From the IMG/VR virus record IMGVR_UViG_3300007735_000658, positions 1-35,203 of that record: a DNA stretch of 35,203 bases; one strand, 5' to 3'. Source of the stretch: a virus. Made by a program: the position numbers and the translations under genes. Below the pieces are notes generated by a model. That model ran no database searches and had not been told where the DNA came from. It saw nothing but the letters and a program-made list of their open reading frames with translations. This document shows, piece by piece, positions 1,158 to 34,682 of the stretch (the stretch's first letter is position 1; each line of letters begins with the position of its first letter).

Positions 1158-1334
1158 TTAGTCCTTTTTGCCTTTTTCTAAACTGAGTAATCGTTCGTTC
1201 AATTTATCTATCTGGGTTTGTAGAGATGTAATACGATCTTGCAATTCTTCTCGTTCACGAATTTGCCGTATGATGGTGGTATCTCCTAAAACAACACCCC
1301 TACCACTACTGTTTTTTATGTATTTCCCTATCAT
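1158..1334 (-). CDS. Small coiled-coil protein in fibre cassette
   Basis: 58 residues starting MIGKYIKNSSGRG. The second half (about residues 20-58: IRQIREREELQDRI, then LQTQIDKLNERLLSLEKG) is a charged heptad-like helix, probably a coiled coil. Its ATG overlaps the TGA of the DUF4815 gene in an ATGA arrangement (1331-1334), which suggests translational coupling, and it ends 3 nt before the fibre start. By position it may be a fibre trimerisation or attachment factor or a small chaperone, but that is inference; no family was recognised. Confidence 0.7.
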   Translation of the reverse strand: MIGKYIKNSSGRGVVLGDTTIIRQIREREELQDRITSLQTQIDKLNERLLSLEKGKKD

Positions 1335-4300
1335 ATTGTTCTTATACTAGCCATTCGGAGGTTACGAACAGCGGGAAGAATAGAGTATTTCTTGTCTGCA
1401 CCTGTTTTTGATGTGGTCATAACCAGTTTGATTTGATACGAACGAATATTGGAAGATGAATTCAAATATGCCCATTGTGTGGGTCGGAAATCAAATTCAG
1501 TCTTGGACAGATTTGAAGACGCTGTGAATGGATATCTGTAACTTCCTATACCACCAACAGCGACCATTTGTGTCCACGGCTTGTTGAAAATATCAGACTC
1601 GCCTCGTTCGGCAAATCTCACATAAGCACGAACCTCTGATCCGTATGGGCAGCACACATCAGCAGTGGTAAACACTCCAGTAGATACCAATTCTTCTGGA
1701 AGTGTAACTGCCTTTGAAACATATGATGAAGTTGGATATTGTGTGTTGGTGTCGTCTGTGGCGATCATTGCCGCTCCCACACCAAAAAACACACCAGTAT
1801 CCAAAGCAGGAGACAGGTAGGTTTTTGAATACGGTTTGATTGCAGTGAATCTAATATCCTTTGTTGCTGTGTATACACTATTCAGATATTCATTTTGGTT
1901 GTTCATCAAAGTCAAATTAGTTGTTCCAGGATCTATAGCAATAACAGCATCGCAAGAAACAGGGATAATTTCCGGAATGTTTACTTTGAGAACCTGACAG
2001 TCTTGTACGCTAAGAGAAGAATAGGTTGCGGTTCCAGACTGTGATGTACCAAAATCACACCGATTCACAGTAAACGAAATGTCTGTGTTGAGATTTTGTG
2101 CTGCTGGCCCAATAGACTGTGGCTGATACAGCGTTCCAACAGCAGGGTTGTTGCCTCCGCGACCGCTATTTGTTAGATCGGTTCCAGAATCATAGGCTCG
2201 CAGAGTATAATCTTTACTGTTTGTTATAACCGCAATTGCGTATTCGCCCGGTTCCATATAAACAGGGCTACTGAATGTGAATCCTGTCGGAACAGGAGTG
2301 GTGCTGTTACCAACATATCCAGTATTCACCTGAGACGGCATAAGTGTAACAGTTGAGAACGGGAAAGAAACCGATGGAGAAGGATATCCGTTCACAGTTG
2401 GACGCAACTGAACGGTAACTGGAAGGTTTGAATCCTTGGTATCAAAATATAGGTTGACGCTATTTACAAATATTCCTTCAGGATACGCCTTTTTATCCAC
2501 TATAAAAGTTTGGCACAGTGGATCTACCCATTGATTACTGGAGATAGTCTCTTGAATGTTGTCATAAGAAACTTCTCTGTTGAATGGATCTTTTATGATT
2601 CCTTCACTTGTTACGGTTTGACGACGATACTCTGGATTTCGTGTGGAGTAAACACCATCAAATCGCTGACGAACAGTTCCTCCACAATAGAAAATACCAT
2701 CCGCTGCTTGTGTGGTATTTTGAGTTGTTGCGTTATCAGATATTCTAACAGACTTTTCGCCACTCAAATAACCCTCAGAACTGAAAGCAAAGGTAGCACC
2801 AACTGTTCCATTAGAATTCGTTGTCAATCCACTCTTGACTAGAATTCCATCAAGATACAAATTCAAACCAGTAGAATTCGGACGCAATCCGTATGCGGTA
2901 ACACCAATAACACTGGATGGCACATACGGAACAACTGTTCTGTCAACAATTCTGTTGTCTGGTGTTCTATATGTGGTTCTTCCAATCATACGATTGGCGT
3001 TTACCAAATTACCAGTCTTTTGATCTACTTGCGAGAAATTTCTATTTACGCTAGTCTTTTCGTTGCCCGAATTTACTGTGGGTATTGAAGACGGAGAGTT
3101 GGTTCTTGGAGTTTCAAGAATTCGTTTTTGGATATCATCCTTTTGATCTGTACGAATTTGTGTACCAGACCACAGATACTCCCAATCGTTCCATTGCGTT
3201 CCGAATCCACGAGCGTCGTTTGCATTAGACCCAATCCAATTGTCATTTTCCAACATGTTATTGTTGTATACAACTGGACGAACATTATTATCAAACGATG
3301 TTTCGTATTGCTTGGTAAACTTCATAAAACCAAGCCAATTGACTGTTCCATTCGGATTTACAGCAACACTCTTGTTGTATCCATCATTTGTTATATGGGG
3401 TGTGGTGGTGTAATCCATCAGTATCAAACCGTCAGACGACACGGTAATACCTGAAGAAGCAGAAGGCGCAGCACCAAGACTCAAGAACTTGTGAGTAAAC
3501 ATTGGGCGAAGTTCGCCATACTGATAGTCAACAGAACATCTGTGGTCTTTATCTGCTACATCTCCACCGGCGTGACCGTAGAACTCATCAGTGTATATTG
3601 ATGTTTTTATTGGTTCGTTGGTCAGAGAAACAATTCCAGAAGTGGAACCACCGTTAGCGATAAACCCATCAATCAGTGGTTTTACTCCTTCTGCTGCCAT
3701 TTCAGATTCAGACAGAGACAACTTAGAGAATACTTCAATATCATCAACTCGTTTTTCTACATTACTAATGTCATTCATGGTGTAACGGCGAACACCACTT
3801 CTGTTGACGACCACATCGGTTGGACGATAAGTGTACGCTGGAATCACAGCAGTAGCCAATGTCATTGAATTTTCTGCCTCTGGTGGAGACTGTGGTGATA
3901 GTTCTGGCACACCTTTATCAACAGCAAATGATATGGACGAATCTGATGGATTTATTTTCAAACTCACGCGATCAATTCTAGGCAGGTAGTTGGTCCATTG
4001 TGCGTTTGTTGCACTTAGGGATTCGTAGTCGCCGTATGGTTTTCCGTTTATAGTATCCAAAGTTGGGCCGCTGTGTCTGAAGTCTATACAGTTAGCCAAA
4101 GAAACAGTTCGTCCGGTTTTTGGATTTGTAAATAGTGGAATCTGATCGTATGAAATTCCCAAATACGAATGGAATCCAACAAATGGCCCAAAAACTGTTC
4201 CTCCGTGTCGTAGATATCGGTATGTGATATCTGCCACTACAGAACCGCTGGTGTATAGATATTCCTTTGACTTTTTAGCAACCAAAGCAGAGTAGTCATA

Positions 4301-6460
4301 GAATGCCTCTTCTTGACCGTCATCCAGTTCAAAATCTGAAAGTTTACTGCTTCCGCTAAAAGACAAACCAGTTACAGAGTACACATCCCAGTGAGGAAGA
4401 GTAAATCCGTATCTTCCGTTTATATTAGACAAGTTATAGACCTGACCAGTTGCAGAATAAGTGGTAGCAGTTTTTGTTCTGCAAGCACCAGAAACTCCAG
4501 TTGGAGTACTGAAAGCAGTTGAGTCTATTGTATATTTGAATGGAAGAACAACCCGCACAGCAGTTCCAGCGGCTCCAGTGAATCCTGCGGGGGTGTTTTC
4601 TGTGGTTAGAACTATCTGATTGCTTGCATTTCTACTGATGTATGCAGTAGCAACATTTCCGGGAGAAAACACCAATCCACTATTTGCAGATCCAACACCA
4701 CTATTGCTTGATAGTGTGTATCGTGAAATTATACTCTTTGAAGACGAAGTAGTGGGAGATAGTGGTATATCGTTTGTGTACAAAACACTCAAAGCACTTG
4801 GAACTGATGGCAGATCAATATCACTTGAACCAAAAGTGTAAGTAGTGGTTGCATTGGTTGGATTCCAAGAAATTGCAGTTGCCCAAGAAGCCGAACTTTT
4901 TGTTGCAACTTTTCCATAAAAAGTCAAACTGGTAAATGCACTTATTCCTTGTGTTGGTGTGATTTCATAAACCAAAGAGGTGTCGTTTGCAGCAGAACCA
5001 CCAAGCAATCCAAAGGTAGAACCGTTTACAGGAAAAAAGATTCCAAAAGTTATACCTGCACTAGCACCACCTGGACTTCCATAAACCACAGCACTGCTTG
5101 CTCCACTAATAACAGAACCAGCGCAAATTCCGTAAAGATACATGGAGTACACAGAAGAAGTAACACCAAAAGACGAAGGAATCAATCCGTGAACTCTGGC
5201 TTGACCTATCACGGCATTGCTATTATTTCTGAAACGAACAAGAGCAGAACCACCATTCATATTATTCAGATATGTGTAAGCAGTGCTTCCACTATTGGTT
5301 CTGTCCAAAGAAACACCAATGTAATTACCAGTGTTGAATATAAAATCTACATTGTTTGCTGTTGTGTCTATATCTCTGCCTTTTGAAATTCCAAGAATCG
5401 TGGGATACTTGGTTTCAACTTCATTCCCGTAAATATATGCTTTGCCTGGCCCAATAACAAGATCCAAGTTTTGTTCTGATGAAGATGAATTTCTCACACT
5501 TATATCAAAAGGGTTCACCAAGTAAGAACCCGATTCGTCATAAGTTCTTTGAGCCAAAGTCTTGGATATGTCACCATAAACTACTCTATCAATCTTCTTT
5601 GTTACACGCCCGTCTTCGAATCTCAACAACTCCACAAAATCGTCCGGTGTGCTGTTTAGATCGGTCTGATCCAGTTCAAGATTGACTACAAACCGATCTG
5701 CTCCTGGTGCTTTGTAGTTTGGAGAACCAAAAGACGGATCAAGAAGAGACAAGTTTTCAGAAGAAGTGGTTGTGTCTCTAGTTACTGCAAATCCTATCTT
5801 TTTATCCAATCCAGCAAAGGTCACACCACCGCTTGTGCATGTAAGATCACGATAACCTCCAGCAGCAACAAAGGGAGTAAACGACTGTTCATTGTTCAGA
5901 ACAAACATGCCGTCAATATAAAATATTCCATCACCCACAGTTACAAGTTTACACAGCCCGTTATGGGTTGAACCAGCAACAACAAACGGAGAATATCCTG
6001 CACCATTAGAAGTTGTTATGCCAACGGTTACTCCTGTTATCGGTATCTGTTGACTGTAACCAGAAACATAATCCACAACAACAAACAATTTATCGTCTGT
6101 TTCTGGTGGAAGAACATGTGCAATTTTTCCGCTAGCAGTAGCACCCCAATAAATCGTACCACCAACAAGAGAGTCCCAATCGGTCGTTCCAAACGCAGAA
6201 AACGGAGTGCCTGTTCCGGTTTTTAGTCCTAAAAAGTTTGTGTTTCTGACAGAAATAGGAGCACCCACTATTCGTGAGCCGTCTTTGAACAGGTGATCTC
6301 CTATTTTTGAAATTTGATTCTGAAGAATTGATTGTATTTGTGTCAGTTCACGAGCCTGAACAGCGTATCCGGGTTTGAATAGGATTCTCAAAAATCCATT
6401 ATCTGGATCGTAATCGTCATAGTACGGAGAAACATTGAAGATACTAGGATCGTAAGCCAT
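1331..6460 (-). CDS. DUF4815-type large virion structural protein (baseplate/short-fibre region)
   Basis: 1709 residues. The N-terminus (FNVSPYYDDYDPDNGF, then LRILFKPGYAVQARELTQIQ and SILQNQI) matches the conserved start of the DUF4815 structural proteins that marine T4-like phages encode after their wedge genes. The middle is a long Ser/Thr/Gly/Asn-rich beta region with little helix. Near residue 1300-1420 a segment with DPLCQTFIVDKKAYPEG, VTVQLRPTVNGYPSP and EPGEYAIAVITNS resembles beta-sandwich modules seen in other phage structural proteins. The product is probably a virion protein at the baseplate periphery, in the place T4 uses for gp9-gp12; the exact role is unknown. The gene starts 9 nt after gp8 and overlaps the next gene by 4 nt. 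No signal peptide or membrane segment is seen. Family placement is confident, function is not. Confidence 0.8.
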   Translation of the reverse strand: MAYDPSIFNVSPYYDDYDPDNGFLRILFKPGYAVQARELTQIQSILQNQISKIGDHLFKDGSRIVGAPISVRNTNFLGLKTGTGTPFSAFGTTDWDSLVGGTIYWGATASGKIAHVLPPETDDKLFVVVDYVSGYSQQIPITGVTVGITTSNGAGYSPFVVAGSTHNGLCKLVTVGDGIFYIDGMFVLNNEQSFTPFVAAGGYRDLTCTSGGVTFAGLDKKIGFAVTRDTTTSSENLSLLDPSFGSPNYKAPGADRFVVNLELDQTDLNSTPDDFVELLRFEDGRVTKKIDRVVYGDISKTLAQRTYDESGSYLVNPFDISVRNSSSSEQNLDLVIGPGKAYIYGNEVETKYPTILGISKGRDIDTTANNVDFIFNTGNYIGVSLDRTNSGSTAYTYLNNMNGGSALVRFRNNSNAVIGQARVHGLIPSSFGVTSSVYSMYLYGICAGSVISGASSAVVYGSPGGASAGITFGIFFPVNGSTFGLLGGSAANDTSLVYEITPTQGISAFTSLTFYGKVATKSSASWATAISWNPTNATTTYTFGSSDIDLPSVPSALSVLYTNDIPLSPTTSSSKSIISRYTLSSNSGVGSANSGLVFSPGNVATAYISRNASNQIVLTTENTPAGFTGAAGTAVRVVLPFKYTIDSTAFSTPTGVSGACRTKTATTYSATGQVYNLSNINGRYGFTLPHWDVYSVTGLSFSGSSKLSDFELDDGQEEAFYDYSALVAKKSKEYLYTSGSVVADITYRYLRHGGTVFGPFVGFHSYLGISYDQIPLFTNPKTGRTVSLANCIDFRHSGPTLDTINGKPYGDYESLSATNAQWTNYLPRIDRVSLKINPSDSSISFAVDKGVPELSPQSPPEAENSMTLATAVIPAYTYRPTDVVVNRSGVRRYTMNDISNVEKRVDDIEVFSKLSLSESEMAAEGVKPLIDGFIANGGSTSGIVSLTNEPIKTSIYTDEFYGHAGGDVADKDHRCSVDYQYGELRPMFTHKFLSLGAAPSASSGITVSSDGLILMDYTTTPHITNDGYNKSVAVNPNGTVNWLGFMKFTKQYETSFDNNVRPVVYNNNMLENDNWIGSNANDARGFGTQWNDWEYLWSGTQIRTDQKDDIQKRILETPRTNSPSSIPTVNSGNEKTSVNRNFSQVDQKTGNLVNANRMIGRTTYRTPDNRIVDRTVVPYVPSSVIGVTAYGLRPNSTGLNLYLDGILVKSGLTTNSNGTVGATFAFSSEGYLSGEKSVRISDNATTQNTTQAADGIFYCGGTVRQRFDGVYSTRNPEYRRQTVTSEGIIKDPFNREVSYDNIQETISSNQWVDPLCQTFIVDKKAYPEGIFVNSVNLYFDTKDSNLPVTVQLRPTVNGYPSPSVSFPFSTVTLMPSQVNTGYVGNSTTPVPTGFTFSSPVYMEPGEYAIAVITNSKDYTLRAYDSGTDLTNSGRGGNNPAVGTLYQPQSIGPAAQNLNTDISFTVNRCDFGTSQSGTATYSSLSVQDCQVLKVNIPEIIPVSCDAVIAIDPGTTNLTLMNNQNEYLNSVYTATKDIRFTAIKPYSKTYLSPALDTGVFFGVGAAMIATDDTNTQYPTSSYVSKAVTLPEELVSTGVFTTADVCCPYGSEVRAYVRFAERGESDIFNKPWTQMVAVGGIGSYRYPFTASSNLSKTEFDFRPTQWAYLNSSSNIRSYQIKLVMTTSKTGADKKYSILPAVRNLRMASIRTI

Positions 6461-6469
6461 TTTTTTTCC

Positions 6470-8905
6470 TTAGAAGCCTATTCGTAGTCTAAATTCTTCG
6501 CTTTGATTTCTCAATCTTTGTACAGGCTGGATACTGTTTATGTATAAGATTTCTCCAGAATGAACATCAATCTCTGGTGCGGTAATAGAGGTCACGGTAT
6601 ATCCATCATTGATTGAATTTCTATTCAGTCTAGAGAAGGTGTTTCCGTGCAGAGTGCTATATTTAAAAATTCCAAAAGGTTCACCAACATACAGTTTTCC
6701 GGAAGCAGTATCAGTTTTTTCCCATTTATAAACATATCCACCAGCATAGTCATAAGAGTACGAGCCACTAAGTCCCTGCTGTATAAAATCACCATTTACC
6801 CATGTGGTGTCAGTAAATTCTGGCAAAATTGAAGGGCGAGAAACATCCAAAACAGTAAGTCCGCTGTATCTTGGAGCAGTTGCCTCATCAAAATACGGAG
6901 TACTAGCGTTTATTATCTTGAAGAGTTCAGCAGTATTTCCACCTTCTGTCGCCAAAGACAAACCTCTGTTGACAAAAGCATATTCCCCGTATGCAAGAGA
7001 CACGCCACCAACCAAAGCGGTAACACCACTAAAAGAACCTGTTATTTGTAGTGTGTTAGATGATCCTCTGGCAAAAGCATTTGAAGTAACACGAACATTT
7101 AGTGTATTACTAGACGCACTTATTATTGTTCCCTCTGCGGTTATACCGAATCCGTAACTTATACCACCATATGCAGAAATTCCTGCTGGAATATTTTGTG
7201 TCACTCTTTCTCCAACAACAAATCCAGATTTTGCGGGAGACAGATTCAATTCGTAATTTTGCAAACGATCAGCCCAAGTTATTGGTTGAGAACCATTATT
7301 TTTTACCTTAACTTGAACTCTGGTTTCATTATTGAGTGTACTAACAGCCTTTACTTCAGAAATAGCAAAAGACGAATACGACTCTGCTCCTGTTATAAAG
7401 TTTTTGGAACCACTAAAAAAATTATCAGTAAAATTCTGTTTGGTAGATGAAACAGACCCAAGATACAGCAAGGTCAAATCACGATAGTACTGCTGATCTG
7501 TTCCTGCAACGATTCCGCTTCCGTCATTCAACAGAGGATTTTTTATTATACCAAATTGACGATATTTTCCATCTGTTGGAATCACATCACTATCATTCTC
7601 CTCACTTAGTTCCACAATTATGATTACATCTTTAATGTTCAATTCTTTTAGAATGTTTGAAGAGTGACCACCTTTAGGGGTAAGAACAGCATTCAAGGTT
7701 GGATGAACAGTGTTTCCCGAGGTTCCATCTGACTTGGGGCTAACGACTTCTACTCTTGCTTGGCTATAATTTCTTCCTCCACCAATCAAATCTACCCCAG
7801 TCACTTTTCTCCAAGACGATTCTCCTGTTTTGCCCAAAGTGAGGAAACAGTACGCTCCGCTTCCGTCTCCAGAAAAACGAGCATATGGAATAATATCATA
7901 GTAAATTTTTTGTGTTGTTTGATTATTGTAAGACACATTGAAAGGTTGATATTCTCCACGAATTGTGAAAGTATATTGGTTGCTACTAGCCGTTACACCT
8001 TTTATAATTCCGTATTTGTTTACATCTGACGGATTTGTTCCTGAACCGCTCACATCAACTACTCTTAATATGTACCCCTCGTAATTGTTTATTTGTGACA
8101 CAGGTAAACTATACAGATTGGTGTTTGTACTAGACGAAATTGTATAGTAATCACCGACACCTAAAGAATCGTTTGGAGCAGCAGCCGTAGTACCAGTTGC
8201 ACCTGCCACAAATCTTGCTCCATACTCACTACCAAGATAAGTTGCAGCAGAAACACCACCCGTAGAAATCAACTCAACAGAATTTATTTGACCATCAACT
8301 GCTGATTGTTGTGCGTTGAATTGTAATGAGGTTTCACTTGTAACTGCATCAGAAAGGTTGTCTTTATCAACTTTTACGAAATTGATTGGCACATAATCTA
8401 TCAATTCATATGGCAAATCAGATTCATTTATAGTTGCAAGATATTTCCAAGTGTAACCGTCTTGTTCGGTTTGTGCAATACTACTGTTATGTGATGGCTG
8501 ATAACGAGAAGGAACTAGAGGAGTGGGAACACCAACACACTTGTATATGTTGTTGGAATCTGTCACAACATAAAAGTTTTGGGGATCGTCTTCACTAAAC
8601 AGTTCAACATCGTCACGATAAGCGTCGTAATATTCTCCACTCGTCCACGGTACTCGTTCAAGAGCAAAAACAATTTTACTAGGATCTATCTTCTTGTATC
8701 CTATTATGCTTCTCATTATGTCATATTCCGCTTCCACAGTATCACTTGGAAGAACGGGAATAATATCTGCACCTTGTGTTTCTGTTTCTGCCCATGCACT
8801 AGATTTTGAAATGAACAGAAAATACTGATTTCTGTTATCTGCAATATCATTAAAGAACGCTTCGGCAAAGGCTCTTTTTATTGATGTTTTTAGCAATAAG
8901 GGCAT
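6470..8905 (-). CDS. 8: Baseplate wedge subunit gp8-like
   Basis: 811 residues, much longer than T4 gp8 (about 334). The N-terminal 180 residues carry the gp8 pattern: NRNQYFLFISKSSAW, then VLPSDTVEAEYDIMRSIIGY, RVPWTSGEYYDAYRD, a YKCVGVPTP stretch and DGYTWKYLATI. A second gp8-like block (KYRQFGIIKNPLL) lies near residue 447, and the C-terminus (GEILYINSIQPVQ, ending in RLRIGF) mirrors the T4 gp8 end. Between these blocks lie extra beta-rich insertions, including residues about 548-645, which resemble the C-terminus of gp7 in this phage. In T4, gp8 is a dimeric wedge component joined to gp7 and gp10. The gene follows gp7 with a 5-nt gap and has a GGAGATTAAAG leader before ATG. Confidence 0.85.
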   Translation of the reverse strand: MPLLLKTSIKRAFAEAFFNDIADNRNQYFLFISKSSAWAETETQGADIIPVLPSDTVEAEYDIMRSIIGYKKIDPSKIVFALERVPWTSGEYYDAYRDDVELFSEDDPQNFYVVTDSNNIYKCVGVPTPLVPSRYQPSHNSSIAQTEQDGYTWKYLATINESDLPYELIDYVPINFVKVDKDNLSDAVTSETSLQFNAQQSAVDGQINSVELISTGGVSAATYLGSEYGARFVAGATGTTAAAPNDSLGVGDYYTISSSTNTNLYSLPVSQINNYEGYILRVVDVSGSGTNPSDVNKYGIIKGVTASSNQYTFTIRGEYQPFNVSYNNQTTQKIYYDIIPYARFSGDGSGAYCFLTLGKTGESSWRKVTGVDLIGGGRNYSQARVEVVSPKSDGTSGNTVHPTLNAVLTPKGGHSSNILKELNIKDVIIIVELSEENDSDVIPTDGKYRQFGIIKNPLLNDGSGIVAGTDQQYYRDLTLLYLGSVSSTKQNFTDNFFSGSKNFITGAESYSSFAISEVKAVSTLNNETRVQVKVKNNGSQPITWADRLQNYELNLSPAKSGFVVGERVTQNIPAGISAYGGISYGFGITAEGTIISASSNTLNVRVTSNAFARGSSNTLQITGSFSGVTALVGGVSLAYGEYAFVNRGLSLATEGGNTAELFKIINASTPYFDEATAPRYSGLTVLDVSRPSILPEFTDTTWVNGDFIQQGLSGSYSYDYAGGYVYKWEKTDTASGKLYVGEPFGIFKYSTLHGNTFSRLNRNSINDGYTVTSITAPEIDVHSGEILYINSIQPVQRLRNQSEEFRLRIGF

Positions 8906-8910
8906 GTACT

Positions 8911-11900
8911 TTAATCTCCGAGTCTATCGTATGTATCTTGTGTGAGAACAGTTCCATCTGCGAGTTTAGTGCCTTCGGACTTGTATACAAGACCGTAAAG
9001 ATTTACAAAATCTTCCACACTTATCTCACCAAAACTAGCAGTAGCCAAAGAAACACCGCTCAAGGATGCTGTAGCACCGCTAACAGAACCAACCACAAAC
9101 CTATCAGATTGGATTCCCCTGATAAAACCGTTTTTAGTCACCTTTACCGCTAATCTATTAGGAGCAGTACTAGTAATCACCCCTTCTCCACACACACCTG
9201 CGGCAAAAGAAATACCCTGAAGCATTTCTATTGTTATTCCTGCTGGAATATTTTGTTTTAAGGTTTCACCTACCAAGAATCTGGTATTTGCGGTTGTTAG
9301 AGTCAAAGCGTAATTGTTCAGTATGTTAGAAGCCCGTGTTGTGTTTGGGTGCTTTTCTATGTCCCAATACGAATAACCAAGCAGAGCAGCACTGGGATAC
9401 ATTCCAGAAGCAACACCATCAAAATCAAATGGAATAATCTGATCCAGTCTATATTTTCTTGAAAGATATGAATACACCACAAATCGCTCAGTAGGAGTCA
9501 ATACACGATCATAGACCACTACTTCGTAAATGACACCGTTGAAAGAATATGAAGGATTGCCCAAAGCAGCATTCACAAAGCCAGAAGCAGAAGTTGAGTT
9601 GGCATCTAATACAGGCAAGCAGAACGCCCCAAATCTTCCCATATCAAGGGTGTTTCCATTATAAGAAACTTCAGAAGCAGCAAAATTGAGAGGGCTTGAA
9701 CCACCCGGACTATCGGTTCTTGCTATTCTTCGTGATACTTCTTTTGAGAAATTTTTAGATTCGTTCCCGTTATAGAACGATTGTATTCTGCTGTCTCGTT
9801 TTCTGCTCCACTCTCCAATAGAAATATTCTCAAGAGAGATACCGCTTAGAGTGCTTGTATACGGGTTGTATGCTATGCGAGAAGCAGCGGTGCTTCCCAC
9901 ATTATTTCTAAAACCAACCAGTCCCGTTTCGTAAGGATAAAACGCTTCATTAGTTCCAGAGTTTACAAAATAATTTGTGCTGTTCTTTTTTGTAGAATCC
10001 AAATCAACATTATTATAAGAACGATTGTAGAAAAGGTGATCGGTTTCACCAACAAAAGGAGAAAGTCCACTTCCAGCAAACAGTTCAGGACTCCAAATGT
10101 CAACTGTTAGGCTATCGCTTGTTCCATACCCTCCACGAAGACCAAATCCAAAATTTTGAGGTGTAGAAGCAGCAATCTCTTGCACATAGTGTTTTCTCCA
10201 ACTGGTAGTAACAGGTATCAGTAGATAATTACTACCAGCGGCATGTCTAAACGCAAGCGTTCCTCCTGCCGCAATACCTTTCACCCACAAAAATCCACCG
10301 TAAGTGGAGCCACTAACCATAGTAGAAGGCAAACTCTGTAGAACCAAAGTCATATCAGTAGTATTTGTTCCTGCTCCTTTATTCAACACAAATCGTGTTG
10401 CAGTTTTGGTTCCTAATGGATCAAAAACCCCATATGTTCGTGTTGGAGTAACTCCGGTTCCCGATATTGCACTGGGCCAATTAGTAGTATTGCTTAGATC
10501 TGCGGTATTTGAAAGCACATTTGTACGAGTCTGCTCTACTGACGGAGAGAAATTGTAAAGAGGTTTAGAAGAACTAACCAAACCCAATCCGTAATTGGAA
10601 GCAGTGTATCCTGCTGCTCCTGTTGGGCCTGCTCTAAACACTATGAACGCAGTCATGTCTTTGGTTAGACTCAACCCACGAGTCAGGGTAAAGAATCGTG
10701 CAGTTTGAATCCGCTCACCAGTAAAACCGGAAACAAACGGAGCAACACCGTTGGCTCCAAGAGTCACTCCTGCGTAGCCACCACACAAACCTGCCTGTGT
10801 CCATACTGTGTGTGGGCCGTAAAGCACACCACCGTTGAACTCAATTCCTGTGCGACCTGCTATCCCTCTGTCGTTGATTATCAGAGTTGGGCGCAGTTTA
10901 TCTACGGTTAATCCTTTTACTTGGACAAACTGCATGTTTGATGTGCCAGTCCACCCAGAAATGGGAAGATCTACACCATCGTTTTGTGCTTTAACTATTT
11001 GGCAATTAGAAGTGGGATACAACCACGAAGAATCCGCATAAAACACTTCACCAGCGGAAACACCAGGTGATCTCAAAAGGGTTGGAGTGGAATCAAGAGT
11101 GTCTTTTCTGTAATAGTTAACCGTATTGTTTACTTTATCGTGACTCAAACCAAATATAGTGGATGTGGTATACGATCCTAATACTCCATCTCCGGCTAAA
11201 CTAATATTGCCTCCACCACCTGTTCTACCAATCTCATACGCTGATAATTTTGGTGCACCAGAATCATAAGCGAGAATATAAATACTAAAATCTAAACGCT
11301 TATAACCATCGTTTGTTACATTTCCTCCAGTACCGAGGGGAGCAGTGTTTCCACCGCCGACATTTCCCCAAAAACCAACCATAAATCCATTTCCGTTGGC
11401 TTGAGAAATACCTTGTACGGGTGGGCCATAATTTCCCACTCGGAACTCAATGTTGTCACATGGATTGGTATTCCATACTGATTCATTCCAATTGTTTCCG
11501 CCTGCTCGTTTTCTCGCATACAGAACTGTGTCACCGTCCCACAGATCCCACTTGGGTGGTACAGCATGGTTTTGAGACGGCGAAGCGTCTCGCCATATGT
11601 CCATGCTTCTTCCTGTTATCAACGAACCACCACACACACCAATATTCTCTGGTTTTAGCCAAAGCACTAAATTGTTTATTGCTTGCGGAGTGAACCCAAC
11701 AGTATCGGGTGTTAGTTTATTTTCATAGTTTAGACTCCAAGCGGTGACACCACCCAAAGCACCACCCAAAGGATCGTGAGCAGTTCTTCCACTTTCTGGA
11801 ACCAAACAATATGTGTATCCTAAATTTCCACCAGAACCTCCAGCAGTAAAAGTTGTTCCAAGAGGAGCAGTTTTTCCATTTGGCCCCAACTCTGCGGTTC

Positions 11901-13272
11901 CACCAATATACGGATTGTAACCAAGAGGATACAAATCACCAGTTTTTCCGTATGTAACACCACCAACATTTATCAACCACGAACCACTCAAAGTCACTCC
12001 GTTTGCACGAAGATCAAGAGTTGTCCCAAAGGTATATGGTGTGTAGTTTCCTATAACTGGCACACCAACACGAGTCAACTGAGAAGATCCGCTGTTGGTT
12101 GTGGATAACGCATCTTCTAAAAGAATTGAACCAAACATTTTGGTTCCTGCTGGATGGACAAGATGCTTCAATATAGAATAATAACGATCTATACTAACAG
12201 ACGACTTCAACTCATAAGAAAAGTCTTGATAGTAGTCACCATCATAGATTTTATTTGTTGATGAAATTTTACCAGAATTTCCGACATAATATCCTGGATA
12301 ACGAGTAATTGCGGTGGGTGTGAGCACTACAATAGAATTACTGTTCTGTCCATTTGCACCAACAACCAAAGCAGTAACCGTGTTGAAATAGTTTACACCA
12401 GAGTTGTCAATTTGAATCTTTTTGACACCCCCATCAAGTCCTGTTTGTTGAACCTTTGCAGAAAAACCCACACCATCTGCCGACACAAAAACAGTATCAC
12501 CAACTTTATAATTTGATCCTGGTGTTTGTATAAAAAAATCACCAAGCACACTGAATGATGTCTCGGTGAAAGAATCAACTCCGGTATCAGAAAACGGAAC
12601 CATTGTTGTGGTCGCGTTTGGTAAAAAATTTCCAGTAAGATTGGTCAAATATAGTTCAGTAACAGGAACTCCGTCTTGATAATACTTGAAAACTTTATCA
12701 ACCAGAGCATAAGCGATCAAAATACCATCAGCATTGTACTGTTGAACCTGCCCACCAACCATGTACTCGTGTAGAGACTCGTTGTTTCTAGTTACTTTTA
12801 TTGATACCTGCTCTACCCATTTTCCATCAGAAGCACGGAGAATTTGTTTTTGTGGATAACCTACCTGAAGATTGCTATCAAAAAATAATCTAAACAAGAA
12901 ACGATAGGCACTTTCTGTGCCTTTGCTGCCATAAAACTGTCGTATCTTCTTTAGTAGTGTCTTTTTGTTGGGTGTGAATCCTTGAGTGTTCACATGATAT
13001 AGATCACAAAAACTGTCCATAAATGTATGCTTGAAGTACGAATAAAACTCTTCAAGATTTTTATCAATATCGTAAACAGAATCCAAATTATAATTTACAA
13101 ATCCTGGATTGCCTTCTTTTTCCATCCACTCGTAATACGCCTTGATGAAAAGTATGAGTTTTCTGTAATCACTCTTGATAAAAGAAGGGAATTGCTCTTC
13201 TATAAATGGAGACAGAATTTTTTCTAAAGATTCTGATGGCGTACTCAGTATTATAGATTTTATATCTGTCAT
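8911..13272 (-). CDS. 7: Baseplate wedge gp7-like protein with nested lectin-like insertions
   Basis: 1453 residues (T4 gp7 is about 1032). Residues 1-160 carry the gp7-type start of environmental T4-like phages: SPFIEEQFPSFIKSDYRKLI, FIKAYYEWMEKEGNPG, LLKKIRQFYGSKGTESAYRF and ILRASDGKWVEQ. Residues about 530-915 and 1110-1275 look like a split LamG/concanavalin-type jelly roll, beginning NNLVLWLKPENIGV and ending VIYEVVVYDRVLTPTERFVV. Residues about 917-1078 look like a second jelly roll of carbohydrate-binding-module type (RTNVLSNTADLSNTTNWPS to DIWSPELFAGSGLSPFVGET). The last 140 residues share a domain with gp8. gp7 in T4 nucleates wedge assembly with gp10 and gp8. The gene sits between gp6 and gp8 with gaps of 6 and 5 nt. 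Glycan binding by the insertions is inferred. Confidence 0.85.
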   Translation of the reverse strand: MTDIKSIILSTPSESLEKILSPFIEEQFPSFIKSDYRKLILFIKAYYEWMEKEGNPGFVNYNLDSVYDIDKNLEEFYSYFKHTFMDSFCDLYHVNTQGFTPNKKTLLKKIRQFYGSKGTESAYRFLFRLFFDSNLQVGYPQKQILRASDGKWVEQVSIKVTRNNESLHEYMVGGQVQQYNADGILIAYALVDKVFKYYQDGVPVTELYLTNLTGNFLPNATTTMVPFSDTGVDSFTETSFSVLGDFFIQTPGSNYKVGDTVFVSADGVGFSAKVQQTGLDGGVKKIQIDNSGVNYFNTVTALVVGANGQNSNSIVVLTPTAITRYPGYYVGNSGKISSTNKIYDGDYYQDFSYELKSSVSIDRYYSILKHLVHPAGTKMFGSILLEDALSTTNSGSSQLTRVGVPVIGNYTPYTFGTTLDLRANGVTLSGSWLINVGGVTYGKTGDLYPLGYNPYIGGTAELGPNGKTAPLGTTFTAGGSGGNLGYTYCLVPESGRTAHDPLGGALGGVTAWSLNYENKLTPDTVGFTPQAINNLVLWLKPENIGVCGGSLITGRSMDIWRDASPSQNHAVPPKWDLWDGDTVLYARKRAGGNNWNESVWNTNPCDNIEFRVGNYGPPVQGISQANGNGFMVGFWGNVGGGNTAPLGTGGNVTNDGYKRLDFSIYILAYDSGAPKLSAYEIGRTGGGGNISLAGDGVLGSYTTSTIFGLSHDKVNNTVNYYRKDTLDSTPTLLRSPGVSAGEVFYADSSWLYPTSNCQIVKAQNDGVDLPISGWTGTSNMQFVQVKGLTVDKLRPTLIINDRGIAGRTGIEFNGGVLYGPHTVWTQAGLCGGYAGVTLGANGVAPFVSGFTGERIQTARFFTLTRGLSLTKDMTAFIVFRAGPTGAAGYTASNYGLGLVSSSKPLYNFSPSVEQTRTNVLSNTADLSNTTNWPSAISGTGVTPTRTYGVFDPLGTKTATRFVLNKGAGTNTTDMTLVLQSLPSTMVSGSTYGGFLWVKGIAAGGTLAFRHAAGSNYLLIPVTTSWRKHYVQEIAASTPQNFGFGLRGGYGTSDSLTVDIWSPELFAGSGLSPFVGETDHLFYNRSYNNVDLDSTKKNSTNYFVNSGTNEAFYPYETGLVGFRNNVGSTAASRIAYNPYTSTLSGISLENISIGEWSRKRDSRIQSFYNGNESKNFSKEVSRRIARTDSPGGSSPLNFAASEVSYNGNTLDMGRFGAFCLPVLDANSTSASGFVNAALGNPSYSFNGVIYEVVVYDRVLTPTERFVVYSYLSRKYRLDQIIPFDFDGVASGMYPSAALLGYSYWDIEKHPNTTRASNILNNYALTLTTANTRFLVGETLKQNIPAGITIEMLQGISFAAGVCGEGVITSTAPNRLAVKVTKNGFIRGIQSDRFVVGSVSGATASLSGVSLATASFGEISVEDFVNLYGLVYKSEGTKLADGTVLTQDTYDRLGD

Positions 13273-13278
13273 TTGAAA

Positions 13279-15132
13279 TTACCGAATCAGATTGAGAATG
13301 TTTGCATCGTCTTCACTCACTACATCAACTTTCACCGAATCAAGGTACGCATTGCTTATTCTTAGTATGTTATTTTCTTTTGCGAAAATGTTTGTTGTGT
13401 TTGGTTCTACCGTTATGATTATAGGAAAAGCAGTAGAAATGTCAGTAGAGGGCAGGAACTTGTTATTTGTTGTAATTATTCCATTAGTGTAATCAACAGT
13501 TCCAACAGACGGATACACAACATCGTAATCTCCTGTTTGCTCATTCAAGGCTACAACATTCACCACTCCATTTCCATCGTCTCTCAACGAGCACGATGGT
13601 ACAGACTGTCCTATCAAATTCAGATGAGTAAAATTATTTGAAGTTATTACAGAGGTGTATCCGTCATATGGATGAAAGAAAGCGTTTCCAAAGTTGAAAG
13701 CATATGATTTGGAAGAATAGATGACTGAAGAATCTACTGTCTTTCTCATCTTTATCTTTGTATACACGCCCAGAACAGAACTGTCTATGTTGTTTATTCC
13801 TTCTGCCATTTTTGAGTAATAAAAATCAGAACCAAACCTATCAAGAACAGCAGACGAATACGCAAAAATATAAGCATATACCAAAGATTTCAACACACCT
13901 GGACTAATAGAAAGAGTGGTTGGAGTATACACAACTGTTGAATCAATCACCAAATCTATAAAACTAGGATCTACCACCTCAACTGTCATGGGTAACACAG
14001 AATAACTAGATCGCAGTTTTGATTTTAGCGTCACCTTGTCACCCTCTGTCACAACTTGCCCAGACTTTGGCTTCACAGCAATAAGAACTTTTCCATATTG
14101 AGGTGGTGTTACTGTTTCTCCACCATACACACGAACAGATGAAGCATTTGGATAAATCTTATAGACTATAGCCGTATAGTCGTCTTCTGTGACTGCTCGG
14201 TTGTTTGTCTGATAGAATTTTGGGGCAAGAAATTTTATCTTGGAAATGCTTTCACGATCTGCGCCGCCATAAGTTTGTTCAGATGTTTCTGTAGAAGAAA
14301 AAGCAATACTTCCTATGCTAGCGTCTCCACTCTTCGTAAATGAAACCACACCATTCCCATCAACTCCATTTGTTTCAAGATACTCAATAGAAACAACATT
14401 TCCTGTTTCTGGCTGTTGACCTATAATACCGTCTCCAAAATATAACTCGTATATGCCTGCGTCTTTTTCTTGCAAGAAATACACTTTAGACTCGCCATTC
14501 AAATTTAGATAATCTGTGCCGTCTGTCCACACATCGTCTATACCTGTAGTATCAGTTACGGAATTGTAAACACGAACTTTTAGAGTGCTGATATCTGCTT
14601 TGTCGTTAGGAATTATTAGATACGAACCAATCTTGGTGTCTCGATTGTAAATATAAGTGACCCGCCTGATGGTTCCTTCATATAGGGTAACAGAACTAAA
14701 CTTGTTAGTAGTAGTGTCAGCAAAAACAGTCTCTAGATTTACGAATTTGAATCGTTTGCCTTCTCTATTGGTTCCACTGAACTCTGTGCCTCTTGGAAGA
14801 TAAAGATCAGATGTAGCAGTAATGGCTATAGAAATATCAACAACTGCACGGGAAGATGTTATAGATGACGGAAGATATCCTAAATGCTTGGCATGTGAAA
14901 CTACAGATGGGCGAAGAACTGCACTATCCAAAAACATCTCATTAGCAACCATATTAGAATAAAACGCTTGATAGTGGGTGTTATATGCCAACACATCCAA
15001 TATAGTGTTTATAACCGAGCCGTCAAAGTTGTAGTCTTTTAGTGTGCTCTGCGATTGCAAATAGGTTTTCAAAGACTCTTTAATATCTTGAAAATCTAAC
15101 CCAACTACATTTATTGCGTTGTTCTGTGCCAT
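13279..15132 (-). CDS. 6: Baseplate wedge subunit gp6
   Basis: 617 residues, close to T4 gp6 (about 660). The N-terminus shows the gp6 signature: GLDFQDIKESLKTYLQSQST, then LKDYNFDGSVINTILDVLAY, NTHYQAFYSNMVANEMFLDS and AVLRPSVVSHAKHLGYLPSS. The middle holds the J/gp6 family block SISKIKFLAPKFYQTNNRAV, then TEDDYTAIVYKIYP. In T4, gp6 dimers form the continuous ring that ties six wedges together and moves on sheath contraction. The start codon overlaps the gp25 stop by one nucleotide (position 15132), so the two are probably coupled. Nothing unusual was seen. Confidence 0.95.
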   Translation of the reverse strand: MAQNNAINVVGLDFQDIKESLKTYLQSQSTLKDYNFDGSVINTILDVLAYNTHYQAFYSNMVANEMFLDSAVLRPSVVSHAKHLGYLPSSITSSRAVVDISIAITATSDLYLPRGTEFSGTNREGKRFKFVNLETVFADTTTNKFSSVTLYEGTIRRVTYIYNRDTKIGSYLIIPNDKADISTLKVRVYNSVTDTTGIDDVWTDGTDYLNLNGESKVYFLQEKDAGIYELYFGDGIIGQQPETGNVVSIEYLETNGVDGNGVVSFTKSGDASIGSIAFSSTETSEQTYGGADRESISKIKFLAPKFYQTNNRAVTEDDYTAIVYKIYPNASSVRVYGGETVTPPQYGKVLIAVKPKSGQVVTEGDKVTLKSKLRSSYSVLPMTVEVVDPSFIDLVIDSTVVYTPTTLSISPGVLKSLVYAYIFAYSSAVLDRFGSDFYYSKMAEGINNIDSSVLGVYTKIKMRKTVDSSVIYSSKSYAFNFGNAFFHPYDGYTSVITSNNFTHLNLIGQSVPSCSLRDDGNGVVNVVALNEQTGDYDVVYPSVGTVDYTNGIITTNNKFLPSTDISTAFPIIITVEPNTTNIFAKENNILRISNAYLDSVKVDVVSEDDANILNLIR

Positions 15133-29642: not shown

Positions 29643-29694
29643 ACTGGTATATTGGCTTGGAAACGGGGTTGAACAGGTTCTTTACAAACAAAAA

Positions 29695-29765
29695 TTCCTT
29701 CGCTTGGATTCGAACCAAGACAAGGAGGACCAAAATCTCCTGTGCTACCGTTACACCACAAAGGA
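29695..29765 (-). tRNA. tRNA-Gln (TTG)
   Basis: 71 nt. Acceptor TCCTTTG/CGAAGGA, D stem GTGT/GCAC, anticodon loop TTTTGGT (anticodon TTG), T stem CTTGG/CCAAG with loop TTCGAAT, discriminator A. The anticodon stem has one A-C mismatch next to the loop (31-39). CCA is not encoded. Confidence 0.92.
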
Positions 29766-29766
29766 A

Positions 29767-29838
29767 CTGGCTCGGCTGGATTCGAACCAGCAACCGATCC
29801 GTTAACAGCGGATTGCACTACCGTTGTGCTACGAGCCA
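29767..29838 (-). tRNA. tRNA-Asn (GTT)
   Basis: 72 nt. Acceptor TGGCTCG/CGAGCCA, D stem GCAC/GTGC, anticodon stem ATCCG/CGGAT with loop CTGTTAA (anticodon GTT), T stem GCTGG/CCAGC, discriminator G. CCA is not encoded. It is separated from tRNA-Gln by one nucleotide, so both are surely cut from one transcript. Confidence 0.93.
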
Positions 29839-29843
29839 AGCAG

Positions 29844-29930
29844 CGGGCAAGGTGGGATTCGAACCCACGATACGATTACTCGTATACAGCATTTCCAATG
29901 CTGCTCCTTCAACCGCTCGGACACCTGCCC
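29844..29930 (-). tRNA. tRNA-Ser (GGA)
   Basis: 87 nt with the long class II variable arm (TACGA/TCGTA, loop GTAA). Acceptor GGGCAGG/CTTGCCC, anticodon stem CAGCA/TGCTG with loop TTGGAAA (anticodon GGA), T stem GTGGG/CCCAC, discriminator G as for serine. CCA is not encoded. Confidence 0.93.
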
Positions 29931-29935
29931 TGAAA

Positions 29936-30100
29936 TCAGATGCCCTTTTCAGCCTTTACCCAAGCAGGAAGACGATCCTGTGCTTCCAACTTGCGAAGGG
30001 TTTCTTTCTTGGCATTTAGCAGTTGGGTTTGGCGAGCCTTCTTACGAGACTCGTAACGACGCTTACGACGACGATTTAGTTCACGATACTTGTTCACCAT
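29936..30100 (-). CDS. Small very basic protein between tRNA genes
   Basis: 54 residues from ATG at 30100, with a good ribosome site (AAGGAGAACACTAAAATG). Sequence MVNKYRELNRRRKRRYESRK, then a helix (TQLLNAKKETLRKLEAQDRL) and PAWVKAEKGI. The Arg/Lys density suggests RNA or DNA binding, possibly related to tRNA processing by location, but this is inference. The TGA is 6 nt before the mature 5' end of tRNA-Ser, so translation and tRNA maturation must share one transcript. Confidence 0.7.
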   Translation of the reverse strand: MVNKYRELNRRRKRRYESRKKARQTQLLNAKKETLRKLEAQDRLPAWVKAEKGI

Positions 30101-30122
30101 TTTAGTGTTCTCCTTTACAAAG

Positions 30123-30195
30123 TGAGCCTACGGAGATTCGAACTCCGGTCAAGAGGATGAAAGCCTCCTATCCTAGACCACTAGACGATAGGCCC
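30123..30195 (-). tRNA. tRNA-Glu (TTC)
   Basis: 73 nt. Acceptor GGGCCTA/TAGGCTC, Glu-type D arm GTCTAGTGGTCTAGGA, anticodon stem GGAGG/CCTCT with loop CTTTCAT (anticodon TTC), T stem CGGAG/CTCCG, discriminator A. CCA is not encoded. It lies upstream of the basic protein gene on the same strand. Confidence 0.93.
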
Positions 30196-33424: not shown

Positions 33425-34417
33425 TCAAATAGTCTCGGGACTATCTGAAAAGCGAACATCGTGCAGTTCAGGAACTCCACCACACGACAACTCACGAACC
33501 AAATACATTTTGAATTCGCTCAAATCCTTGAATTCAACAATTTCGCCGTTGTGAATTACTTTAAACACACCAACCCGAGACAGCACATCGCACTTGTTGA
33601 TAATCATTTGAGTGCAGCCTGAAAGGTTTGCTGCGGCAATCAACTTGTCTAGATTCAACCAATTTGCAAGTCTCTTTCGTCCAGTGGTTGTGCCGTATTC
33701 ACCGCCTTCACGAATAAGCCTGTCAATCTGCGGGTCTTCCCAAAGCGTTTCAGGGAACAGAGGGTCAACACCACTCTTGGTGTCGTAGGCTTTGGCTACA
33801 CCAATTATCTGTCCGATTCTGCGCGGTGTAAAACCCAAAGAGCAAGCACTATAAGGAAGAGTGTTGCTAGAAGTAACATACGGGTAGTCTCCGTGGTCTA
33901 TGTCTAGCCAAACACTCTGTGCTCCTTCGCACAGAACTCGTCCGCTCATCTTGCCGTCCCAAAGCCAATCAGAAATGAAATACTCTGCTGCTCGTCGTCC
34001 ACGACGCAGCATCTTGTCTGCGTAGCAGGGAGCAATTCCTTGTCCTGTGGTTCCCAAGTGACCCAAATTCTTTTTGTCGTAAGCAATATGCTCTTCTGTA
34101 ATTATATGAGCAGCAGGAGAAATCTTGACAAGATTTGTATCAAATCCTTCACTACGGAGGTAGCGAATCTCTTCAAAGAACTTGTCGGTGTTGATTACGC
34201 ACCCTGGCCCAATCACACACGGCTTGCCTGCGAAAATGCCTGACGGAATAATATGGGTCTTGTGCTTCTTGCCGTTCACCCACACAGTGTGACCCGCGTT
34301 TGGGCCGCCGTTCCAACGACACACCCAATCGTATCGGGGAGCCATTGCAGCAGACACCTTGCCCTTGCCTTCGTCACCCCATGCCAAACCGTATATCACA
34401 TCAACGCTGGTAATCAT
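33425..34417 (-). CDS. purA: Adenylosuccinate synthetase (PurA family, short phage form)
   Basis: 330 residues against about 430 in bacteria. It catalyses IMP + aspartate + GTP to adenylosuccinate, first step from IMP to AMP. Motifs in order: WGDEGKGK (residues 13-20) with catalytic D15, GGPNAGHTV with catalytic H43, HIIPSGIF, GTTGQGIAPCYADKMLRRG, GAQSVWLDIDHGDYPYVTSS and GTTTGRKR (aspartate/GTP loop), INKCDVLS (the NKxD guanine-binding motif). The catalytic Asp equivalent to E. coli D13 is kept, so it resembles true PurA rather than the 2-aminoadenine enzyme PurZ, in which that Asp is reported to be replaced. It probably supports dATP supply. The shorter C-terminus omits part of the bacterial protein. 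The start overlaps the 59-residue gene as ATGA. Confidence 0.93.
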   Translation of the reverse strand: MITSVDVIYGLAWGDEGKGKVSAAMAPRYDWVCRWNGGPNAGHTVWVNGKKHKTHIIPSGIFAGKPCVIGPGCVINTDKFFEEIRYLRSEGFDTNLVKISPAAHIITEEHIAYDKKNLGHLGTTGQGIAPCYADKMLRRGRRAAEYFISDWLWDGKMSGRVLCEGAQSVWLDIDHGDYPYVTSSNTLPYSACSLGFTPRRIGQIIGVAKAYDTKSGVDPLFPETLWEDPQIDRLIREGGEYGTTTGRKRLANWLNLDKLIAAANLSGCTQMIINKCDVLSRVGVFKVIHNGEIVEFKDLSEFKMYLVRELSCGGVPELHDVRFSDSPETI

Positions 34418-34593: not shown

Positions 34594-34609
34594 AGTAATC
34601 TCCGTTTAG

Positions 34610-34682
34610 TGCCCCCAGCAGGACTTGAACCTGCAACCTACGAATTAAAAGTTCGCTACTCTGCCAATTGAGTTATGGAGGC
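34610..34682 (-). tRNA. tRNA-Lys (TTT)
   Basis: 73 nt. Acceptor GCCTCCA/TGGGGGC, D stem ACTC/GAGT, anticodon stem GCGAA/TTCGT with loop CTTTTAA (anticodon TTT), T stem GCAGG/CCTGC with loop TTCAAGT, discriminator A. CCA is not encoded. It stands apart from the other four tRNAs, between two small protein genes. Confidence 0.93.

Follow-up and report, generated by a model that had tools for sequence, protein, structure and literature searches.

Lectin-type modules on phage baseplate proteins are known in principle. Vp4 Gp119, a baseplate wedge protein (BW3) of the Herelleviridae, contains two CBM folds, and the purified protein binds host cells (PMC11406892). These CBMs are missing from the homologs Deep-Blue Gp177 and A511 Gp105 (PMC11406892). 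In siphophages, the evolved form of Dit (evoDit) carries inserted CBMs that aid adsorption to saccharides (PMC7291167, PMC10688798). Here we describe a gp7 gene in which modules of the host-recognition type are nested two levels deep, inside a wedge protein that is commonly regarded as conserved and structural. The window, by which we mean the whole stretch of 35,203 nucleotides analyzed, is a linear IMG/VR fragment of an uncultured phage; the distal fibres of this phage lie outside the fragment.

Results

A gp7-type wedge gene between gp6 and gp8

The ORF of interest lies in a wedge cluster, flanked by gp6 and gp8, which is the position of gp7 in T4-like phages. The wedge features are:

8911-13272, minus strand: gp7-type baseplate wedge ORF, 1453 aa (ORF call; PHROG 17744, 2e-55; Pfam PF23786 above cutoff)
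12007-13272, minus strand: conserved wedge core, residues 1-422, kept in orthologs with and without LamG
8914-9033, minus strand: C-terminal tail of gp7, residues 1414-1453, conserved where a LamG is present and recognisable in gp7 without one
13279-15132: gp6 (PHROG 219, 5e-165)
6470-8905: gp8 (PHROG 438, Pfam Gp8)

The matches to the baseplate wedge families, PHROG 17744 and Pfam Baseplate_wedge, fall in the first ~400 residues, and a profile of the wedge core matches residues 733-759 of T4 gp7 (~27 aa) with E values of 1e-5 to 1e-4. The gp6-gp7-gp8 order is also found in phiM12 and Cr30. Among cultured phages, relatives were found for the wedge part of gp7 only, for example in Caulobacter Cr30, Sinorhizobium phiM12 and Synechococcus BUCT-ZZ01. 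Sequence and gene position identify the ORF product as a baseplate wedge protein of the gp7 type, from an uncultured T4-like phage. The initial annotation had given it this name, which the family matches and the gp6 and gp8 flanks bear out; its ORF, coordinates and motifs are likewise exact (NLVLWLKPENI at residue 534, NVLSNTADL at 918, DIWSPELFAGS at 1058 and YEVVVYDRV at 1249). A frameshift or chimera artefact was ruled out, as the gene is a single open frame and orthologs have the same layout (L004 is 68% identical throughout).

Elsewhere in the fragment, a 1709-aa DUF4815 protein is encoded after gp8 (1331-6460, minus strand), where phiM12 has a VrlC-like gene; it is possibly a further adhesin or baseplate layer. 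A short adenylosuccinate synthetase-like gene of 330 aa (33425-34417, minus strand) has PurZ-type PHROG and PurA matches, all below the NCBIfam cutoffs. Five tRNA genes (Gln, Asn, Ser, Glu, Lys) are located on the minus strand at 29694-30195 and 34609-34682.

Three predicted beta-sandwich modules, two of them nested in the third

Between the wedge core and the tail, structure prediction places the following modules:

9460-11679, minus strand: split LamG/ConA-like sandwich, residues 532-1271 (Z 12.5), an insertion in ancestral gp7
10915-11538, minus strand: insert B, SPRY-like, residues 579-786, identified by fold and by presence or absence in orthologs
10048-10542, minus strand: insert D, CBM4/CenC-like, residues 911-1075 (Z 9.7 to CBM4-2)

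Residues 515-1320 (806 residues) were modeled using AlphaFold2 with 28 aligned sequences. The model is all-beta and of moderate confidence (pLDDT 60, pTM 0.51). Using VIA-align, model positions 18 to 757, corresponding to the split LamG, were matched to the LamG-like domain of AbnA; the alignment covers about 197 residues across both gaps. The ortholog L025 contains the LamG without either insert and gave a good model (pLDDT 82.6, pTM 0.87). This insert-free LamG is a two-sheet jelly roll that matches LamG/ConA-like structures at Z 13-17. The best match is the tailspike of the cyanopodophage Pan3 (Z 16.8), and others include arabinofuranosidase and AbnA (Z 14-15) and further lectin-like domains. 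Matches to clostridial neurotoxin receptor-binding domains and sialidases reflect the shared fold, at ~10% identity, and a toxin or enzyme reading was ruled out.

Domain 4 of AbnA, which matches the L025 LamG at Z 14, was solved with arabinotriose, and polysaccharides of plants, algae or bacteria are frequent ligands of CBM4 and LamG-type domains. The modules might accordingly hold virions near their hosts by binding a dissolved or capsular polysaccharide matrix instead of a receptor, much as Ig-like or Hoc decorations do. The location of the wedge at the tail tip favours contact with the cell, and we regard matrix binding as quite unlikely.

The two inserts form sandwiches of their own in the model. 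Residues 581-768 of insert B match several PRY-SPRY structures at Z ~10, as expected for a SPRY beta-sandwich. Residues 913-1066 of insert D match the CBM4-type sandwich of CBM4-2 with an rmsd of 2.9 over 137 residues, and the insert D profile, searched against the whole PDB, returned two matches only, both to CBM4-2 (E 0.006 and 0.009). When the LamG core and the SPRY alignment were used as profiles against the PDB, the matches were at chance level only, and the LamG core had zero matches among 50,697 phage records. In Pfam searches, the window LamG has no Laminin_G_3 match, insert B no SPRY match and insert D no match at all; Pfam and NCBIfam together detect none of the three modules, because the modules have diverged, while the folds themselves are clear. 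The assignment of the window LamG is one of predicted fold, not of Pfam-family membership, and insert B is called SPRY-like by its modeled fold alone.

The initial annotation had described two lectin-like modules, a LamG and a CBM-type module nested within it. Structure prediction and structural search recovered both and added the SPRY-like insert (~579-786), bringing the total to three; also overlooked was that the entire LamG region is an insertion within gp7. A family assignment through Pfam, which it had named as a check, did not follow for any of the modules, although the insert D profile does reach CBM4-2 in the PDB.

We then compared insert D with the ligand-binding positions of CBM4-2. 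Two key aromatics of CBM4-2, W69 and F110 (the latter position is named in PDB titles), align with Met974 and a Gly in the window, although the alignment is weak. In the same weak alignment, the W69 position is Trp, Trp, Tyr and Ile in four relatives. On sequence grounds this variation would fit a changing specificity, and would equally fit a loss of binding. Insert D is the least conserved large module of the window protein, being 54% identical to that of L004 compared with 71% for the wedge core. Members of its CBM family are likewise present in a podophage protein and in further non-gp7 phage ORFs.

Modules occupy fixed sites and are exchanged among relatives

A degenerate-pattern scan of viral contigs with the whole region gave no matches, after which relatives were reached via gp6. 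The resulting alignment contains the window gp7 and 31 relatives, whose lengths at each of several fixed sites fall into distinct classes. At site A (residue ~425), eight relatives carry an additional complete LamG of ~310-330 aa, and one carries a module of ~165 aa. Site B is either empty or occupied by the SPRY-like module, the insert being missing from some orthologs at the identical point. Site C holds a ~200 aa module in four relatives, CBM-like in its sequence pattern (NLxxWSEDF type). Site D holds insert D in 5 of the 32 aligned proteins (the window, L004, L008, L009 and L039), and an insert of ~450 aa at site E has a Laminin_G_3 domain at its end (Pfam 1.3e-11). Profile comparison relates the closing motif of the core LamG to the LamG of site A (hhalign 96%, 2.5e-9) and, weakly, to that of site E. 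Mapped by hand onto the L025 model, sites B, C, D and E correspond to positions of about 50-58, 102-115, 162-175 and 279-298, all of them stretches without regular strands. Because the inserts are cleanly missing from orthologs at the same loops, their nesting is more than chance. The variability of the insert among related gp7 proteins, which the initial annotation had proposed as a test, extends to presence or absence at fixed loops and to the swapping of modules.

The LamG itself shows the same behavior one level up. In gp7 relatives of 576-637 aa, the segment TPYTFGTT...DLYPLGYNP runs straight into the tail, YGYxFWDIYHHPN...FGGITLENF, and in LamG-bearing gp7 the LamG sits between these two segments. 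The short proteins, with no LamG at this junction, indicate that the LamG is an insertion into a shorter ancestral gp7. The wedge thus came first, followed by the LamG and then by the SPRY-like and CBM-like modules inside it.

In many relatives (L012, L016, L021, L022, L031-L033, L035, L037, L038, L044 and others), a long insertion is present at the position corresponding to residue ~1190; its last part is a complete Laminin_G_3-type domain, and a stop codon there terminates gp7. The leftover LamG strands and the conserved tail make up an ORF of their own, ~175-195 aa in length, immediately downstream. The lectin domain is thus spread over two genes in about half of the relatives.

Across IMG/VR, the gp7 core is present in 60 of the 63 distinct ORFs that contain the LamG core; the remaining three are cut off at the 5' end, and every LamG-core match on a contig reaching the gene start is a gp7 ORF. 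By a coarse tally, the 52 complete LamG-bearing gp7 genes display 12 cassette combinations. Many sites and combinations, including no module at all, are tolerated, and similar modules are spread across many phage proteins. This would fit promiscuous lectin cassettes that gathered by recombination in a permissive gp7 loop as near-neutral passengers without a specific role. Against it, the frames are open, and the LamG core is confined to gp7 wherever the gene start is visible and is strongly conserved, its first segment reaching up to 94%, above the wedge core. We consider this explanation very unlikely.

Pairs of close relatives reveal the exchange directly. Over gp6 and the part of gp7 that precedes site B, L004 and L006 share ~94% DNA identity, and beyond site D the value is again 95%. 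In the stretch from one site to the other, L004 has both modules and L006 has neither, and the intervening LamG part is only 77-82% identical; the exchanged block spans exactly the insert modules. In L013 and L042, the wedge core is 93% and the tail 98% identical, whereas identity falls to 50% in the SPRY-like module, 40% in LamG segment 2 plus the site-C module, and 57% in LamG segment 3. The modules have diverged in excess of the wedge core and tail that carry them.

One further module is common to gp7 and gp8 of the window:

9034-9327, minus strand: module F, gp7 residues 1316-1413, 46% identical to the phage's own gp8
6977-7270, minus strand: gp8 copy of module F, gp8 residues ~546-643 (tblastn 2e-19, 46% identity)

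Module F (~95 aa) is present in gp8 of nearly all relatives and in no other relative's gp7. From this distribution, the gp7 module was probably copied from gp8.

A module common to gp7 and gp8 is what one expects of a structural wedge component, raising the question whether the inserted sandwiches are structural as well, contacting the neighbouring wedge, gp8, gp10-like or fibre proteins, or bracing the baseplate, without binding host glycans. Beta-sandwich insertions are frequent in phage structural proteins, and the CBM4-2 aromatic positions are non-aromatic in the window copy. Structural contacts, however, should co-vary with the core, yet the modules diverge or vanish at ~93% core identity and are exchanged as a block between near-identical phages; moreover, the closest structure to the LamG is a phage tailspike. 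A purely structural role is therefore unlikely.

Discussion

Lectin-type folds located at the tip of a contractile tail, and swapped while the core stays constant, are best explained by adhesion to host glycans. We think it fairly likely that gp7 also serves as an adhesin for host glycans, one that is modular and diversifying; surface exposure, glycan binding and a role in adsorption are what we infer from the folds and their exchange. Protein binding and structural roles are also known for LamG, SPRY and CBM-like folds, which counts against this reading. The baseplate probably contributes to host attachment in its own right. Contact of the wedge with the host surface, raised in the initial annotation as separate from the fibres, is plausible by analogy, with Vp4 Gp119 as the precedent.

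We propose that the N-terminal core and the short C-terminal tail of gp7 would build the wedge, and that the LamG between them would be exposed as a platform whose surface loops carry the SPRY-like and CBM4-like modules. Six copies of gp7, or a multiple of six, around the baseplate could grip glycans of the host surface or capsule multivalently and with low affinity, adding to the contact made by the fibres or taking its place. Selection imposed by the host would exchange and diversify the modules and keep the wedge core fixed. A stronger version, which we find doubtful, is that in this group of aquatic myophages gp7 is the main, combinatorially built receptor-binding protein, a core chassis with docking loops in which lectin cassettes are swapped to change host, and that the split LamG halves may reassemble on the baseplate.

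The exchange pattern is visible over dozens of relatives in nature. Should binding be confirmed, predicting the host range of uncultured myophages would require reading gp7 along with the fibre genes, and gp7 would offer a natural system for studying how loops tolerate domain insertions.

Our literature search, which was incomplete, found no published description of such nesting, combinatorics or split genes; the double nesting in the gp7 LamG, the combinatorial variation at many sites and the forms split over two genes seem to be new versions of the known principle. Among cyanophages, P-SSM4 has a LamG-bearing gp7 (AAX46881, 7312 aa) with two Laminin_G_3 matches, which shows that the lack of such domains, stated for T4 gp7 in the initial annotation, is not general for T4-like gp7. 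It differs from the window protein in being far larger and in having LamG at other positions. This gp7 also holds YHYH, and that of S-CAM22 is likewise giant, an 18.8 kb ORF. At the level of single folds, the Pan3 tailspike (PDB 9vyh) shares the LamG/ConA-like fold of the L025 LamG at 14% sequence identity, in a tailspike and not a wedge protein. CBM4-2 of the Rhodothermus marinus xylanase (PDB 1k42, 2y64, 3jxs) shares the fold of insert D at about 13% identity, but its aromatic binding positions are not kept in the window copy. Like the window gp7, evoDit is a conserved baseplate protein, in its case of the ring, with added CBMs; it differs in being Dit and in belonging to siphophages of Gram-positive hosts, and we did not find a LamG-in-gp7 type of nesting described there. 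Vp4 Gp119 is likewise a wedge protein with CBM folds that homologs of related phages lack. It differs in being an A511 Gp105-type wedge protein (the proximal fibre part) from another phage family with a Gram-positive host, and its description mentions no nesting of the CBMs in a LamG.
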